A DNA stretch of 64,000 nt, from the NCBI RefSeq assembly GCF_014197795.1, contig NZ_JACIGI010000001.1, forward strand, positions 1-64,000. The letters are read 5' to 3'. Positions 44,379 to 61,208 of the stretch are shown here, in pieces. The first letter of the stretch is position 1. Each line of letters starts with the position of its first letter. The position numbers were made by a program, and so were the translations under genes. The stretch comes from Roseospira goensis. GTDB taxonomy: Bacteria > Pseudomonadota > Alphaproteobacteria > Rhodospirillales > Rhodospirillaceae. A model generated the notes under the pieces. That model ran no database searches. It saw only the letters and a program-made list of their open reading frames with translations, and was not told where the DNA came from.

Positions 44379-44462
44379 TGTTTGCGCATGACCGGGCGGA
44401 CCGGGCCATGGTATCGGAGTTCCCGTGGCGACGCTTCCGGCGAGAGGCGAGACGGTAAGGCC

Positions 44463-44849
44463 GTGACCCCGAAAGACTTCAAGACCTGGCGCAAGGGCGT
44501 CATGCGCATGTCGCAGAAGGAAGCGGCGGAGGCGCTCGGCCTCAAGCGGCGGGTCGTCCAGTATTACGAGAAGGGGGAGCGCGACGGCGACTCTCTGGAG
44601 ATTCCGAAGTCGGTACGCCTGGCCTGCTTCGCGCTGGCCCAGGGGGTGACGGACTACCACGGTCCCGGACAGGTGCCGGAGGGCGCGCCCCCCGACCCGG
44701 CGGCTGGATCGCAGCCGGCGCCGGACGAGATCGCCGGCTCCAAGAAACGCAAGAAGGCGGCCAAGGTCCGGCGCAAGGCCGCCGGGACCCCCGACGGCGG
44801 AGCGGGCGGGGACGGCGCCGGCGGACCGGACACCGAGGCCGCCGACTAG
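44463..44849 (+). CDS. Helix-turn-helix protein with basic tail
   Basis: 128 residues from GTG 44463 (ATG 44502 is an alternative). An XRE-type helix-turn-helix lies at about 5-45 (FKTWRKGVMRMSQKEAAEALGLKRRVVQYYEKGER, in parts), then a Pro/Gly/Ala linker and a lysine-rich stretch SKKRKKAAKVRRKAAG like a histone-type DNA contact. The stop codon TAG is the first triplet of the double-hairpin repeat, so insertion of that repeat may have redefined the C-terminus. Confidence 0.75.
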   Translation: MTPKDFKTWRKGVMRMSQKEAAEALGLKRRVVQYYEKGERDGDSLEIPKSVRLACFALAQGVTDYHGPGQVPEGAPPDPAAGSQPAPDEIAGSKKRKKAAKVRRKAAGTPDGGAGGDGAGGPDTEAAD

Positions 44850-49177: not shown

Positions 49178-50323
49178 ATGAGCCCGACCGCGAACTGGAG
49201 CTATCCCACCGCCATCCGCTTCGGCGCCGGCCGCATCGAGGAACTGGCCGAGGCGTGCCGCAGCCTGGGCATGACCCGGCCGCTGCTGGTCACCGACGCC
49301 GGCCTGGCGGCCCTGCCGATCACCCAGGGCGCCCTCGATGTGCTGGACGCCGCCGGCCTCAAGCCCGGCCTGTTCAGCGAGGTGCAGCCCAACCCGACCG
49401 AGGCCAACCTCGCCGCCGGCGTTGCCGCCTTCAAGGCCGGCGGTCACGACGGCGTGGTGGCCTTCGGCGGCGGCTCGGGCCTGGACCTGGGCAAGCTGGT
49501 CGCCTTCATGCACGGCCAGACCCGGGCGGTGTGGGACTTCGAGGACATCGGCGACTGGTGGACCCGCGCCGACGCCGACGCCATCGCCCCCATCGTGGCG
49601 GTGCCGACCACGGCCGGCACCGGCTCCGAATTCGGCCGCGCCGGCGTGGTCACCAACAGCGAAACCCACGTCAAGAAGATCATCTTCCATCCGAAGATGT
49701 TGCCCGGGATCGTGATCTGCGACCCTGCGCTGACCGTCGGCCTGCCGCCGGCCCTCACCGCCGGCACCGGCATGGACGCCTTCGCGCACAGCCTGGAAGC
49801 CTACTGCTCGCCGCATTTCCACCCCATGTCCCAGGGCATCGCGCTGGAGGCCATGCGGCTGGTCAAGGACTACCTGCCGCGGGCGCATGCGGACGGCAAG
49901 GACATCGAGGCCCGCGCCCACATGATGGCCGCGTCCGGCATGGGGGCGGTGGCGTTCCAGAAGGGCCTGGGGGCGATCCACGCGCTGTCGCACCCGGTGG
50001 GGGCGCTCTACAACACCCACCACGGCACCACCAACGCCTGCGTCATGCCGGCGGTGCTGCGCTTCAACCGGCCGGCGATCGAAGCCCGGATCGACCGCCT
50101 GGCCGCCTACCTGGGGCTGGCCGGCGGCTTCGACGGCTTCCTGACCTATGTCCTGGGGCTGCGCGCGGCGCTGCACATCCCCGAACGCCTGAGCGACATG
50201 GGGGTGACGGCCGACCGCCTGGACGAGATGGCCGCCATGGCCGCCGAGGATCCGAGCTGCGGTGGCAACCCGGTGCCGCTCAGCGCGGAGACGCTGATGA
50301 CGCTCTACAAGGCCTGCCTGTAG
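49178..50323 (+). CDS. Iron-containing alcohol dehydrogenase
   Basis: 381 residues of the group III ADH family. Nucleotide site GGGSGLDLGK, PTTAGTGSEFGRAGV, and metal ligands in AFAHSLEAYCS and GAIHALSHPVGALYNTHHGTTNA (two His). Last gene of the kinase - GS-like - ALDH - ADH cluster. Interconverts an aldehyde and alcohol; substrate unknown. Confidence 0.92.
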   Translation: MSPTANWSYPTAIRFGAGRIEELAEACRSLGMTRPLLVTDAGLAALPITQGALDVLDAAGLKPGLFSEVQPNPTEANLAAGVAAFKAGGHDGVVAFGGGSGLDLGKLVAFMHGQTRAVWDFEDIGDWWTRADADAIAPIVAVPTTAGTGSEFGRAGVVTNSETHVKKIIFHPKMLPGIVICDPALTVGLPPALTAGTGMDAFAHSLEAYCSPHFHPMSQGIALEAMRLVKDYLPRAHADGKDIEARAHMMAASGMGAVAFQKGLGAIHALSHPVGALYNTHHGTTNACVMPAVLRFNRPAIEARIDRLAAYLGLAGGFDGFLTYVLGLRAALHIPERLSDMGVTADRLDEMAAMAAEDPSCGGNPVPLSAETLMTLYKACL

Positions 50324-50457
50324 AGCCGGCTTTGGGGGGGTGCGGGGCCGGGGCCGGGTGACAGAACGCTGACGGGTCCTCTCAGGCGGGCATCAGCGGG
50401 TCCCTGGTAAAGGTCGGGTGTCGTTGAACACACCGTCCAGTCAAGGGACCCCACGCC

Positions 50458-50658
50458 ATGAACACGCCGGAAACCGTGACCAGCATTCTCTCCGTCGCCC
50501 ACCTGCTTGCCATCGGGACCGGCGACAACGCCCTCGATCTGGCGCGCCGCCGGACCTGGCTCGACGGCCGCGGCCAGCCCACCCCCGCCGGCCGCGACGT
50601 GGTCGCGGCGATGCGGACCCAGCGCGGCACCCGCAGCGTCTTCTTCGGCGCCGCGTGA
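50458..50658 (+). CDS. Small hypothetical protein
   Basis: 66 residues, MNTPETVTSILSVAHLL... to ...SVFFGAA. Helical N-terminal half, basic C-terminal half with RRRTWLDGRG. An inverted pair GGGTCCCT (50398) / AGGGACCC (50446) brackets the upstream 40 bp, ending next to the start. Not recognised. It is convergent with the radical SAM gene (10-bp gap) and may or may not belong to that system. Confidence 0.5.
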   Translation: MNTPETVTSILSVAHLLAIGTGDNALDLARRRTWLDGRGQPTPAGRDVVAAMRTQRGTRSVFFGAA

Positions 50659-50668
50659 GCCGGCACCG

Positions 50669-52171
50669 TCACTCGGCGGCGGTTCGCGCCGCCCCCGCGC
50701 GGGTGGGACTGCGCGGCTTCAGCACCTGCGCCAGGGCGCGCAGGAACACCGCCCGGTCGTCCGAGCGCAAGGCGTCCGCCACCTCGCCCAGGACGGCCGC
50801 GATCAGGGTCTTCTGGACCGCGCAGAACCAGGCCGGCGGCTTGTCGATGCGCTGGTCCAGCAGGAACGACGATCCCAGGCAGGACTGGCAGATCTCGTTG
50901 GCCCAGCACTCCCGGCACGGCGCGTGGTGGGACTTGCCGTTGGCCCGGAAGCGGTCCGAGACGGCGGCGTAGCGGTCCTGCGACCAGTCCCCGCCGAGGA
51001 CGCCGTAGCGCGTCTCCGCCGACTGCAGCAGGTAGCAGGGATAGGCCGTGCCGTCGGCGTTCACCGCCATGAAGGTGCGCCCGGCGCCGCAAACGTGGCC
51101 GCGCCGCTCGCGCTTGACCAGGCCGTCGAGCACGAAGTGGATGCCGCGCAACAGGAACGGATCCGCCGTGCGCAGGGACCGCACGCAGGCCCGGGCGACC
51201 GCGACGAACGACTCGGTGACCGCCTCCAGTTCGGCGCGGCAGTCCTCGCCGTGCCAGGTCCCGAGGGCGAGGGTGATCTGCATCTCCGTCACCCCCAGCG
51301 AGCGGATGTGATCGGCCAGATCCCGCACCGACAGGCCGGCCTGGGCATGGGTGCGGGTGTAGACCGCCTCCACCGCCCCGTCGACGCCGGCCGCGCGCAG
51401 GCGCCGAACGGTCTCGCTGGCCCGGTGGTACGAGCCGCGCCCGCCGGCGAACGGGCGCAGGGTGTCGTGGACCGCCGGCGGGCCGTCCAGACTCACCAGG
51501 ACGTAGAAGTCGTGCTCCCGGAAGAAGGCGATCATGGCATCCGTGACCGCCGTGCCGTTGGTGACCACCACGAACACCGGGAGCGGCCAGCCGGCGGCCG
51601 GCCAGCGCCGCTCCACCGCCGCCACGACGTGGCGGATGGTCTCGAACGCCAGCGTGGGTTCGCCCCCCAGGAACTTGATGCTGCCGATGCCCGACCGCGA
51701 CAGCGCCATGGCCGCGTCCAGGATGGTGTCGGCGGTGTCGGGCCGCATGCGGGTACCGGCGCTGTTGAGATCCTCGGCGTAGCAGTAGGCACAGGCCAGG
51801 TTGCAGAGCTGGCTGACGTTCAGCACCAGGTCCTTGAGGTCGGGCACCGGGTCGGGATCGGCGGGCGGCAGCGGGGCGGCGGTGTCGGCATGCGCGGCGA
51901 TCACCGCCCGCATGGCCGCGCGGACGCCGGCCTCTCCGGGCCGCAGGCCGGGCAGGTTGTCCGAGACGGTGCCGGCCCCGAAATCCGACAGGGCCTCCCG
52001 GACCGCGTCCGGGATGTCGAACAGCCGGTAGAGCTCGGGCAGGAACAGGAAGGAGCGATCGCCCCCGTCGACGACGGCGAAGCGGCCGGGCGTGGGCGGG
52101 GCGGCGGCGCCCGAACAGCCCGTGCAGGCGGTGGACGCGGGTGCGGGTGCGGGTGCGGGTGCGGTGGCCAT
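50669..52171 (-). CDS. Radical SAM/SPASM peptide-modifying enzyme
   Basis: 500 residues from ATG 52171 (GGAGG 9 bp upstream). A Pro-Ala N-terminus with CTGC, a ~90-residue domain (RFAVVDGGDRSFLFLPELYRLFDIP) that may bind the precursor, the radical SAM motif CNLACAYC with C123, C127 and C130 followed by YAED, SAM-binding FLGGEPTL, and a SPASM domain with CGAGRTFMAVNADGTAYPC and CRECWANEICQSC to hold extra iron-sulfur clusters. SPASM enzymes of this layout modify ribosomally made peptides. A peptide gene lies 97 bp upstream on the same strand. Which RiPP class is unknown to me. Confidence 0.85.
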   Translation of the reverse strand: MATAPAPAPAPASTACTGCSGAAAPPTPGRFAVVDGGDRSFLFLPELYRLFDIPDAVREALSDFGAGTVSDNLPGLRPGEAGVRAAMRAVIAAHADTAAPLPPADPDPVPDLKDLVLNVSQLCNLACAYCYAEDLNSAGTRMRPDTADTILDAAMALSRSGIGSIKFLGGEPTLAFETIRHVVAAVERRWPAAGWPLPVFVVVTNGTAVTDAMIAFFREHDFYVLVSLDGPPAVHDTLRPFAGGRGSYHRASETVRRLRAAGVDGAVEAVYTRTHAQAGLSVRDLADHIRSLGVTEMQITLALGTWHGEDCRAELEAVTESFVAVARACVRSLRTADPFLLRGIHFVLDGLVKRERRGHVCGAGRTFMAVNADGTAYPCYLLQSAETRYGVLGGDWSQDRYAAVSDRFRANGKSHHAPCRECWANEICQSCLGSSFLLDQRIDKPPAWFCAVQKTLIAAVLGEVADALRSDDRAVFLRALAQVLKPRSPTRAGAARTAAE

Positions 52172-52223
52172 GCCTCGTGTCCTCCCCGAGGGATCCTGGT
52201 GGCCGGAGGCCGGCGCCGCCATC

Positions 52224-52256
52224 GGCGCATCCGGGCCGGCCGCGCCCGGATGCGCC
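52224..52256 (-). promoter_or_regulatory. Strong hairpin between precursor and maturase genes
   Basis: Perfect 12-bp stem, GGCGCATCCGGG with CCCGGATGCGCC, 9-nt loop, in the 97-bp gap between the peptide gene and the radical SAM gene. No T tract follows, so an RNA-stabilising or partial-attenuation role is more likely than a full stop, giving more peptide than enzyme. Confidence 0.6.
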
Positions 52257-52268
52257 CGCGCCGGGGCC

Positions 52269-52472
52269 TCAGCCGCAGCCGATGCCGCCGCAATTGGCAC
52301 GCGAGGCGGCGGCCAACTCGGCCAGCTTGTTGACGTCCTCCACGGCCAGGGCGGCAATGGCGTCCTTGTTGGCCATCAGGGCGCGGATCGGGCCGGCGCC
52401 GATGGCTTCCGCCACCTTCTCCATGTCGCGTCCGGACAGGTGGGACAGGTCGGGGGTCTCACGGCTTGGCAT
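52269..52472 (-). CDS. Putative radical-SAM RiPP precursor peptide
   Basis: 67 residues from ATG 52472 with a good ribosome-binding site (GAGGAG, 8 bp upstream). A long helical, Ala-rich, Cys-free leader (MPSRETPDLSHLSGRD..., ...VEDVNKLAELAAASRAN) is followed by the short C-terminal core CGGIGCG, the only cysteines in the peptide. Leader plus compact Cys-Gly core immediately upstream of a SPASM enzyme is the classic layout of thioether- or carbon-linked RiPPs. The 451 bp upstream (52473-52923) hold only an AT-richer probable promoter near 52640-52720. Confidence 0.7.
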   Translation of the reverse strand: MPSRETPDLSHLSGRDMEKVAEAIGAGPIRALMANKDAIAALAVEDVNKLAELAAASRANCGGIGCG

Positions 52473-52923
52473 GGTGATGCTCCTCGCAGGGGAGAGGGAA
52501 GGGTGGGACGGATCCTGAACGGGCCGGACCGCGCGACGGTCCCGGGATCCGCGGCGGCGCGGGGCCCGTGGCGTCCGGGGCGGCTCCCGGTCGGGAGTGC
52601 AGGCCCGGACGTTGCTTAACCGTAATGGAGTCGGCGGGGGATGTAAAGCTGGTGCGTGCAATGGGCGTTACAAGACTTTTTTGGTTGTATTTGACGCGAT
52701 TTCGCAGTCAACCGCACGGACCGTCCCTCGCCCCCCCGGTTCGGGTCCCGGCCCCAGCGGCGCGAGTCGCCCGCCGCCGCCGGCGGACCACCCGGCGGAC
52801 CACATTGCCGCGCCCTGTCGACATCGTGGCCGACGTCATCATCGACATCATCCGCGGCGTGGTCTAAACGCGGAGGGATCGCATCGCGTCTTCCGTCAAC
52901 CACTCCCGTCCGCGTCGCCGCTC

Positions 52924-53799
52924 ATGGTCCCTCCGCCGTCCGACTCCCCGCCGTCCGCCCCCACCGCGCCCGCCGGCGACCGCGTCGCCAAGGTGCTGGC
53001 GCGCGCCGGCGTCTGCTCGCGCCGCGACGCCGAGCGCCTGATCGCCGCCGGCCGGGTGGCCGTGAACGGCCAGGTGCTGGACAGTCCGGCGCGCAACGTC
53101 GCTCCCCGCGACCACGTGACCGTCGACGGCGCCCCCATTCCCGAGCCCGAGGACACCCGGCTGTGGCGCTTCCACAAGCCGCCGGGACTGGTGACCACCA
53201 CCCGCGATCCGCAAGGGCGCCCGACGATCTTCGAGCATCTGCCGGACACGCTGCCGCGGGTGATCACCGTGGGCCGACTGGATCTGAACAGCGAAGGGTT
53301 GCTGCTGCTGACCAACGACGGCGCCCTGGCCCGCCACCTGGAACACCCGGAGACCGGCTGGGTGCGGCGCTACCGGGTGCGGGTGCACGGGCGGGTGGTG
53401 CCCGAGCGCCTGGCCGAACTGGACCAGGGGGTGACGGTCGAGGGGGTGCGCTACGGCCCCATCAAGGCCGCCCTGGAGCGCCAGCAGGGCAGCAACGCGT
53501 GGCTCACGGTGGCCCTGCGCGAGGGCCGTAACCGCGAGGTCCGGCGCGTCATGGAGCATCTGGGCCTGCCGGTCACGCGGCTGATCCGCGTCGGCTACGG
53601 ACCGTTCATCCTGGGGGCGCTGCCGCGTACCGGGGTCGAGGAGGTGCCGCGGCGCCAGATGCGCGATACCCTGGGCACGGCCTGGCGCCAGGGCGGCGGC
53701 ACCGACGGCCGCAAGACCGGCAAACAGGGCGGCGGGCGCCGCCGTCACCGGGGCGGCACGGCCGCCCCCGACACCACGACGACAGGAGGGGCCGCATGA
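52924..53799 (+). CDS. 16S/23S rRNA pseudouridine synthase (RsuA/RluB family)
   Basis: 291 residues: S4 RNA-binding domain (RVAKVLARAGVCSRRDAERLIAAGRVAVNG, in parts), then the synthase domain with catalytic Asp in GRLDLNSEGLLLLTNDG, and NREVRRVMEHLGLPVTRLIRVGYG. A Lys/Arg/Gly-rich tail (RKTGKQGGGRRRHRGG) is typical for alphaproteobacterial RluB relatives. Start ATG 52924. Its stop overlaps the GNAT gene by ATGA. Confidence 0.9.
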   Translation: MVPPPSDSPPSAPTAPAGDRVAKVLARAGVCSRRDAERLIAAGRVAVNGQVLDSPARNVAPRDHVTVDGAPIPEPEDTRLWRFHKPPGLVTTTRDPQGRPTIFEHLPDTLPRVITVGRLDLNSEGLLLLTNDGALARHLEHPETGWVRRYRVRVHGRVVPERLAELDQGVTVEGVRYGPIKAALERQQGSNAWLTVALREGRNREVRRVMEHLGLPVTRLIRVGYGPFILGALPRTGVEEVPRRQMRDTLGTAWRQGGGTDGRKTGKQGGGRRRHRGGTAAPDTTTTGGAA

Positions 53800-54305
53800 A
53801 GCTGATTGCCCTGCCGCCGGATGTCGCGGCCCGGGTCGCCGGGGGCGACCTCTCGGTCCTGCCGACGGATATCATGCTCGGCGGCGTCGCCGACCTGGTG
53901 TCGGCCATGGCCGCCGGCCACACCGCCCTGTACGCGGCCACCGGGGCCGTCGCGCCCTGGATCGGGTATCTCGCGGCCGAGCCGCGCGGCGCCCAGGTGG
54001 TCGGCGCCTGCGGGTTCAAGGGGCCGTGCCGGGGCGGCGTGGTCGAGATCGCCTACTTCACCTTCCCGCCGTTCGAGGGCCGGGGCCACGCCAGCGCGAT
54101 GGCCGGCGCCCTGCTCGACCTGGTCGCCGGACGGCCGGAGGTGCGGGAGGTGATCGCCCACACCCTGCGCCAGGACGGCCCGTCGGTGCGGGTGCTGGTG
54201 GCGCATGGCTTCCGGCGCCTGGGCGAGATCGACGACCCGGAGGACGGGCGGGTCTGGCGCTGGACCCGCCCGTGCACCGAAAGCGCCGACCGCGCCGCCG
54301 ATTGA
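53796..54305 (+). CDS. GNAT-family N-acetyltransferase
   Basis: 169 residues resembling RimJ/RimL-type GNATs: EIAYFTFPPFEGRGHASAMAGALL holds the acetyl-CoA loop (F-x-G-R-G-x-A), followed by SVRVLVAHGFRRLGEI. Coupled to the pseudouridine synthase gene, so a ribosome- or protein-modifying role is possible but unproven. Confidence 0.85.
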   Translation: MKLIALPPDVAARVAGGDLSVLPTDIMLGGVADLVSAMAAGHTALYAATGAVAPWIGYLAAEPRGAQVVGACGFKGPCRGGVVEIAYFTFPPFEGRGHASAMAGALLDLVAGRPEVREVIAHTLRQDGPSVRVLVAHGFRRLGEIDDPEDGRVWRWTRPCTESADRAAD

Positions 54306-55770: not shown

Positions 55771-55849
55771 GGCGCCGATATGGACGCATCCTGACCGGCG
55801 GGCAAGGCCGGTGTGGACCCGGCTGCGCCCGCGCCCGCCCTGGAGAGCC

Positions 55850-55904
55850 CACGGGGAGACCACGGGGAGACCACGGGGAGACCACGGGGAGACCACGGGG
55901 AGAC
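55850..55904 (+). repeat. Five exact 11-bp tandem repeats before a start codon
   Basis: CACGGGGAGAC repeated five times without change, ending 7 bp before ATG 55912. Each unit holds a GGGGAG that could pair with 16S rRNA. As 11 is not a multiple of 3, loss or gain of one unit shifts the longer upstream frame. Confidence 0.9.
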
Positions 55905-55911
55905 CGCATCC

Positions 55912-60717: not shown

Positions 60718-61208
60718 GCGCCCACGCAGGAGCGTGGGCGCGAGATCCCCTCGCTTCTCGGTCCCACGCTCCCGCGTGGGACCGGTCCACACCGCGCGGC
60801 GCCCACGCAGGAGCGTGGGCGCGAGATCCCCTCGCTTCTCGGTCCCACGCTCCCGCGCGGAACCGGCCCGCCCCGCGCGGCGCCCACGCAGGAGCGTGGG
60901 CGCGAGACCCCTGAACCGTCTCTCTCGGTCCCACGCTCCCGCGGGGGACCGGTCCGCCCCGCACGGCGCCCACGCAGGAGCGTGGGCGCAAGATCCCCTC
61001 GCTTCTCGGTCCCACGCTCCGGCGTGGGACCGGTCCGCCCCGCACGGCGCCCACGCAGGAGCGTGGGCGCGAGATCCCCTCGCTTCTCGGTCCCACGCTC
61101 CGGCGTGGGACCGGCCCACACCGCGCGGCGCCCACGCAGGAGCGTGGGCGCGAGATCCCCTCGCTTCTCGGTCCCACGCTCCCGCGTGGGACCGGCCCGC
61201 CCCGCATC
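60718..61208. repeat. Tandem array of six ~81-bp double-hairpin units
   Basis: Units begin at 60718, 60799, 60880, 60966, 61047 and 61128; five are 81 bp and the third is 86 bp through a changed spacer. Each unit has two palindromes with 10-bp arms: GCGCCCACGC / GCGTGGGCGC around AGGA, and GGTCCCACGC / GCGTGGGACC around TCCC (TCCG in two units), separated by a conserved GAGATCCCCTCGCTTCTC. The two loops are nearly complementary. It fills the 618-bp gap between ybdK and the MATE gene. Confidence 0.92.

Follow-up and report, generated by a model that had tools for sequence, protein, structure and literature searches.

A candidate minimal two-gene radical SAM/SPASM peptide maturation locus with a seven-residue Cys-Gly core in Roseospira goensis

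The 64,000-nucleotide stretch analysed here (the window; contig NZ_JACIGI010000001.1 of Roseospira goensis, positions 1 to 64,000, forward strand) contains two adjacent minus-strand genes, which encode a 67-residue peptide with a cysteine- and glycine-rich tail and a 500-residue radical S-adenosylmethionine (SAM)/SPASM enzyme. The pair is best read, with a probability of roughly 0.6, as a minimal locus for a ribosomally synthesized and post-translationally modified peptide (RiPP), in which the enzyme binds the leader of the peptide and forms one or more thioether rings in its core. The observations that carry this reading are the gene pair, its conservation, the family and predicted fold of the enzyme, and a group of four enzymes, each of which adjoins such a peptide. 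The locus consists of the following elements.

52269..52472, minus strand: precursor peptide gene (67 residues, ATG start); the peptide starts MPSRETPDLSHLS and ends NCGGIGCG
52272..52292, minus strand: putative core CGGIGCG (residues 61-67), which holds the only cysteines of the peptide, C61 and C66
52480..52485, minus strand: Shine-Dalgarno-like GAGGAG of the precursor gene, read from the sequence and retained in R. visakhapatnamensis
52172..52268, minus strand: 97-bp gap with an inverted repeat directly after the precursor stop codon (arms 52212-52236 and 52244-52268)
50669..52171, minus strand: radical SAM/SPASM peptide maturase (500 residues), assigned from motifs, Pfam and fold
51881..52087, minus strand: N-terminal region (residues 29-97) of three strands followed by helices, a possible leader-binding RiPP recognition element (RRE), from the model alignment with 5wgg
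51782..51805, minus strand: radical SAM cluster motif CNLACAYC (CX3CX2C; C123, C127 and C130), from sequence and alignment
50822..51091, minus strand: SPASM auxiliary-cluster region (C361 to C450) with a shortened CX2CX5CX2C block, from sequence and alignment

A sequence-only reading of the window had proposed a peptide gene with a good ribosome-binding site, a cysteine-free leader, a seven-residue core with the only two cysteines and, 97 bp downstream on the same strand, a 500-residue radical SAM/SPASM enzyme with all cluster cysteines. Each of these features is found at the locus, the last SPASM block being a shortened one, and a plausible ribosome-binding site precedes both start codons. 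The enzyme matches the Pfam families Radical_SAM (6.2e-19) and SPASM (5.9e-5). Its SPASM region contains seven cysteines (residues 361, 379, 419, 422, 428, 431 and 450), and the last cysteine block has the spacing CX2CX5CX2C, compared with CX2CX5CX3C in most aligned relatives. The best fold match of the enzyme model is CteB (5wgg), with which the full model aligns from residue 27 on. The CX3CX2C motif, the SPASM cysteines and the predicted fold together identify a radical SAM/SPASM peptide maturase.

A pattern search with the enzyme across 84,980 species genomes returned one relative, from Roseospira visakhapatnamensis JA131 (L015). The same match is given by G228, a genome of the window's genus by whole-genome search that is very probably the R. 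visakhapatnamensis genome. Both genes occur there in the same order, and the two precursors are identical at 61 of 67 residues, with the core CGGFGCG in R. visakhapatnamensis. Of 68 precursor codons compared, 46 are identical, 16 differ synonymously and 6 non-synonymously, and the DNA alignment is strong only from the ribosome-binding site onward; these two observations confirm that the precursor gene is real and not a chance frame. The dN/dS ratios from this single comparison of close sequences (peptide 0.13, enzyme 0.51, control gene gabD 0.24) show that the peptide, leader included, is under tighter constraint than its presumed modifier. A small precursor gene that adjoins a modifying enzyme and is conserved together with it is the arrangement of a RiPP locus. 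The sequence-only reading had staked itself on conservation of the precursor frame beside homologous enzymes; the frame is conserved in R. visakhapatnamensis, and similarly built peptides also adjoin two further enzymes of the group that are less closely related.

These two members come from genomes G039 and G714. A 28-row maximum-likelihood tree separates the four enzymes from the rest by a branch with 99/99 support, which is recovered in 100% of 200 bootstrap trees. All four contain the CX2CX5CX2C block, which is one residue longer in the 13 other rows of a first, smaller alignment. Among the viral loci with a parsed motif, L041 alone shares the short spacing and falls outside the group in the tree, so that spacing alone is not diagnostic. 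Adjoining peptides were sought as same-strand open reading frames (ORFs) of 45-100 residues, no more than 400 bases away, whose last 12 residues hold every cysteine and two or more glycines. Such a peptide lies beside four of the four group members and beside one of the 24 other homologues (28 loci), where it has no Shine-Dalgarno match. This filter was devised post hoc, after the four pairs had been seen, and the count of 24 omits L013, in which an enzyme frame was not parsed, as well as L002 and 21 of the 32 viral loci; both points count against the present reading.

The peptides of the group are P0001 (window), P0003 (R. visakhapatnamensis), P0004 (G039, enzyme P0005) and P0007 (G714, enzyme P0008). 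The G714 enzyme shows 35% identity across 376 alignment columns and is followed 69 bp downstream by a 62-residue peptide ending in NFCCSGVG. In G039, a 358-residue enzyme with a GTG start begins 3 bp after a 78-residue peptide (P0005 as stored is one codon longer). The G039 peptide has PD[LI]SHLS in common with the window leader at the same place and ends NNGGCGVLSGGCC. It is supported independently by tblastn (E 6.6e-4 over 15 loci) and by a shuffle test, in which the window peptide scores p 0.0002 to 0.0004 against P0004 and 0.0006 to 0.0024 against P0007. Cysteine is retained in the tail of all four peptides, and a C-[GS]-[GV]-[IFVL]-[GS] tail is readable in each, although this is a post hoc reading without comparison to chance. 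In 48 genomes of the class of G714, a P0007 search found G714 itself and eight others at E 0.13 or worse. The A3 search of the same genomes gave four at E 1e-38, namely G714 and three (L032, L033 and L034) without such a peptide.

Several observations weigh against the present reading. In the tree, P0005 and P0008 sit on long branches that join each other. Only 12 of the 13 other alignment rows clearly have CX3C; L006 (CGGCC) is ambiguous, though aligned without a gap. The intergenic gap is 97 bp in the window and 293 bp in R. visakhapatnamensis. P0004 and P0007 resemble each other with p 0.0020 in global but 0.09 in local shuffle tests, P0003 matches P0007 less well than P0001 does (p 0.017 local, 0.0034 global), and the only BLASTP match between P0001 and P0007 spans 22 residues and is out of register. 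The putative RRE is no more than suggested by the region alone. In isolation, the N-terminal region has a predicted local distance difference test (pLDDT) score of 66.1, and its best fold match is at only E 0.35 (5why, a chain from the same CteB study). Its weak matches include the leader-binding TbiB1, and an RRE fold search with the region found nothing at E 0.001. In the alignment, the region is missing from P0005 and much shorter in P0008; use of an RRE therefore cannot be group-wide.

The precursors also stand apart from curated families. No precursor reached a cut-off in NCBIfam (P0001, P0004 and P0007) or Pfam (the same three and P0003), and the failure of the sequence-only reading to recognise a known RiPP class in the peptide is borne out for the families scanned. 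For all four enzymes, the 25 NCBIfam models listed per enzyme stay short of their cut-offs, every listed score being far below (best 170.5 versus 340), a further point against the proposed mechanism. SCIFF precursors contain six cysteines in forty-five residues; the peptide has only two, and the enzyme scores 124 versus 425 bits against the SCIFF maturase. The other assignments rejected were a PapB-family ranthipeptide (170.5 versus 340 bits, core without Asp), streptosactin (GggB equivalog, 84.4 versus 650 bits), a Nif11-type RiPP (maturase 143 versus 518.7 bits, peptide without a match to any NCBIfam or Pfam Nif11 model), QhpD (maturase 146 versus 453 bits) and mycofactocin (maturase 55.3 versus 265 bits).

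The closest known systems are the ranthipeptide makers PapB (freyrasin), the best NCBIfam match of the enzyme, and CteB (thermocellin), its best fold match; both are radical SAM/SPASM maturases acting on a core with cysteine. According to PMC11002830, CteB and PapB link cysteine to Thr, Asp or Glu side chains. In contrast, the core here has two cysteines and no Asp, Glu or Thr, the PapB score is half its cut-off, and the SPASM cysteine spacing is shorter than in most aligned relatives. The related QhpD/PeaB, the maturase of quinohemoprotein amine dehydrogenase, makes Cys-Asp/Glu thioethers (PMC11002830) in a substrate that is an enzyme subunit, whereas the dehydrogenases scanned near the window pair are an aldehyde and an iron alcohol dehydrogenase, not quinohemoprotein subunits. 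Streptosactin (GggA/GggB) shares a small C-terminal core with Cys and Gly, in which GggB joins Cys31 to the alpha carbon of Gly34; its cluster carries a protease and regulators (both statements from PMC8172795), and none was found among the scanned window neighbours. The enzyme scores 143 bits against the Nif11-type maturases, but the peptide matches no Nif11 model in either database. Overall, the evidence supports a pair of RiPP type that belongs to none of the curated families tested; it is rare, its core is unusually small, and on present evidence it is not a new principle.

In the proposed mechanism, the conserved cysteine-free leader would be bound by the enzyme, probably through the N-terminal RRE-like region. 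With a 5'-deoxyadenosyl radical and a pair of auxiliary iron-sulfur clusters, the enzyme would then cross-link the core, which presumes that the peptide is the substrate. The only near acceptors in the core are Gly, Ile or Phe, and a thioether is therefore proposed from the sulfur of C61, and perhaps that of C66, to a carbon of Ile/Phe64 or Gly65, three or four residues further along. The modified CGG[I/F]GCG would carry a single tiny thioether ring or a pair of them, and the leader would presumably be removed later by a peptidase encoded elsewhere. The thioether or Cys-linked ring suggested by the sequence-only reading would agree with the nearest enzyme families. Against it stands a core that lacks Asp, Glu, Asn and Thr, the ranthipeptide acceptors named in passages of PMC11002830.

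The same precursor and maturase could instead carry out chemistry other than thioether formation (a C-C link, epimerisation, cysteine oxidation, or conversion of the Cys-Gly tail into a cofactor-like product), for which we see about one chance in four. SPASM enzymes also catalyse other reactions, which counts against the thioether, and the fold-match list includes three with differing chemistry, anSME, TigE and SuiB. The failure of every listed NCBIfam model to reach its cut-off points the same way. However, cysteine thioether formation prevails among the closest families by sequence and the best match by fold, and all four peptides retain a tail cysteine.

Thioether formation followed by leader removal also has to be set against the genomic surroundings. 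No transporter or peptidase is present among the 10 neighbouring window ORFs given to Pfam, although not all neighbours were scanned (for example 44382-44849). The earlier claim of no adjacent transporter stands within these ten, and the lack of a peptidase or exporter among them does not favour a processed product. It would suit an uncut peptide, leader included, that is kept in the cell as a small modified protein such as a redox or metal-binding carrier, an idea we consider improbable. The stronger constraint on the peptide (dN/dS 0.13 versus 0.51) agrees with such a role, but enzyme recognition could equally explain strong leader conservation, and the values come from a single pair of close sequences. 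A peptidase and exporter may also be encoded elsewhere, and one of 10 ORFs scanned around the pairs of the other three genomes, in G039, is an ABC transporter ATPase gene (L069:12965-13699) some 2 kb upstream of the peptide. Equally improbable is the bolder proposal of a new RiPP class with a C-[GS]-[GV]-[IFVL]-[GS] tail and a thioether ring of four or five residues closed on Ile/Phe or Gly, whose full-length peptide stays intracellular, without export, as a cofactor-bearing mini-protein.

It is very improbable that the enzyme acts on something else and that the peptide is an unrelated small protein or merely a chance neighbour. The peptide lies downstream of the enzyme in G714 and peptide similarity across the group is weak (P0004-P0007 local p 0.09), but precursor and enzyme are co-conserved, the pair stays together at different sites in two Roseospira genomes, and Cys-tailed peptides adjoin all four group members versus one of 24 others.

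The pair is rare. A three-row precursor model matched 12 of 318 order genomes at E 0.05, three strongly (the window genome, G228 and G039; G039 was itself in the model that re-found it, which lessens its weight) and nine at E 0.006 to 0.045; by this model, two of seven genomes of the genus contain the precursor. At E 1e-30 the enzyme query found 12 of 298 genomes of the order, counting its own, and at 1e-33 two of 398 phylum-sample genomes (own and G714), and a three-row enzyme profile found two of 385 class genomes at 1e-40 (own and G367). In plasmids, the enzyme matched 33 records, all below 60% identity and many of the 30 listed named peaB; P0008 matched three at about 25% identity, and the precursor matched 110, of which the 10 listed are 25-residue matches (E 0.8) in an ABC transporter permease. 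The precursor search in phages gave no match, and viral contigs gave 32 loci with a best segment of at most 38% identity.

In the window, the pair is flanked by an iron alcohol dehydrogenase gene and a 66-residue ORF on one side and a pseudouridine synthase gene on the other, and in R. visakhapatnamensis it lies between purL and gabD. The synthase is found in seven of seven genus genomes and the dehydrogenase in five, own included, and the pair is absent beside them in the loci of the other genus genomes (flanks of about 1.5 kb or less). These differing sites and absences suggest a small unit gained, lost or moved together. Nine of the 10 scanned window neighbours match a Pfam family; the exception, ORF 50458-50655 (66 residues), adjoins the end of the enzyme gene on the opposite strand. 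One ORF near the G714 pair resembles the HicB antitoxin, and two genes similar to each other lie nearby at L068:6616-7982, of which the scanned one matches DUF3782.

In R. visakhapatnamensis, an inverted repeat likewise follows the precursor stop codon (L015:5668-5695), and such a repeat might raise peptide output over that of the enzyme. Against this, the post-stop repeats are no stronger than in shuffled sequences, the predicted energies (z -1.15 and -0.16) are ordinary for GC-rich DNA, and the gap in R. visakhapatnamensis is predicted to fold without using its repeat. An Rfam scan of 50000-54000 gave no match.

Among the radical SAM RiPPs, the pair represents a precursor family and a maturase subfamily that are unclassified, and its core of seven residues is free of the ranthipeptide acceptors cited above. 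If the acceptor is indeed Gly or Ile/Phe at such short range, the known scope of the enzyme group would broaden, and the small size and two genes make co-expression a cheap test. No paper on the pair was found in the literature searched, which covers few subscription journals, and the one match to the core string concerns lamprey teeth.

A 35-residue Cys-rich peptide of G221 (L006:1087-1191, plus strand), with a good ribosome-binding site and no NCBIfam match, lies just upstream of another SPASM enzyme (L006:1261-2664) and is possibly, with it, a separate unclassified RiPP. Elsewhere in the window, six tandem copies of an 81-bp unit with an internal inverted repeat occupy 60718-61205, and 5.5 copies of an 11-bp tandem repeat lie at 55845-55905, at or just before the start of a DUF1848 gene.
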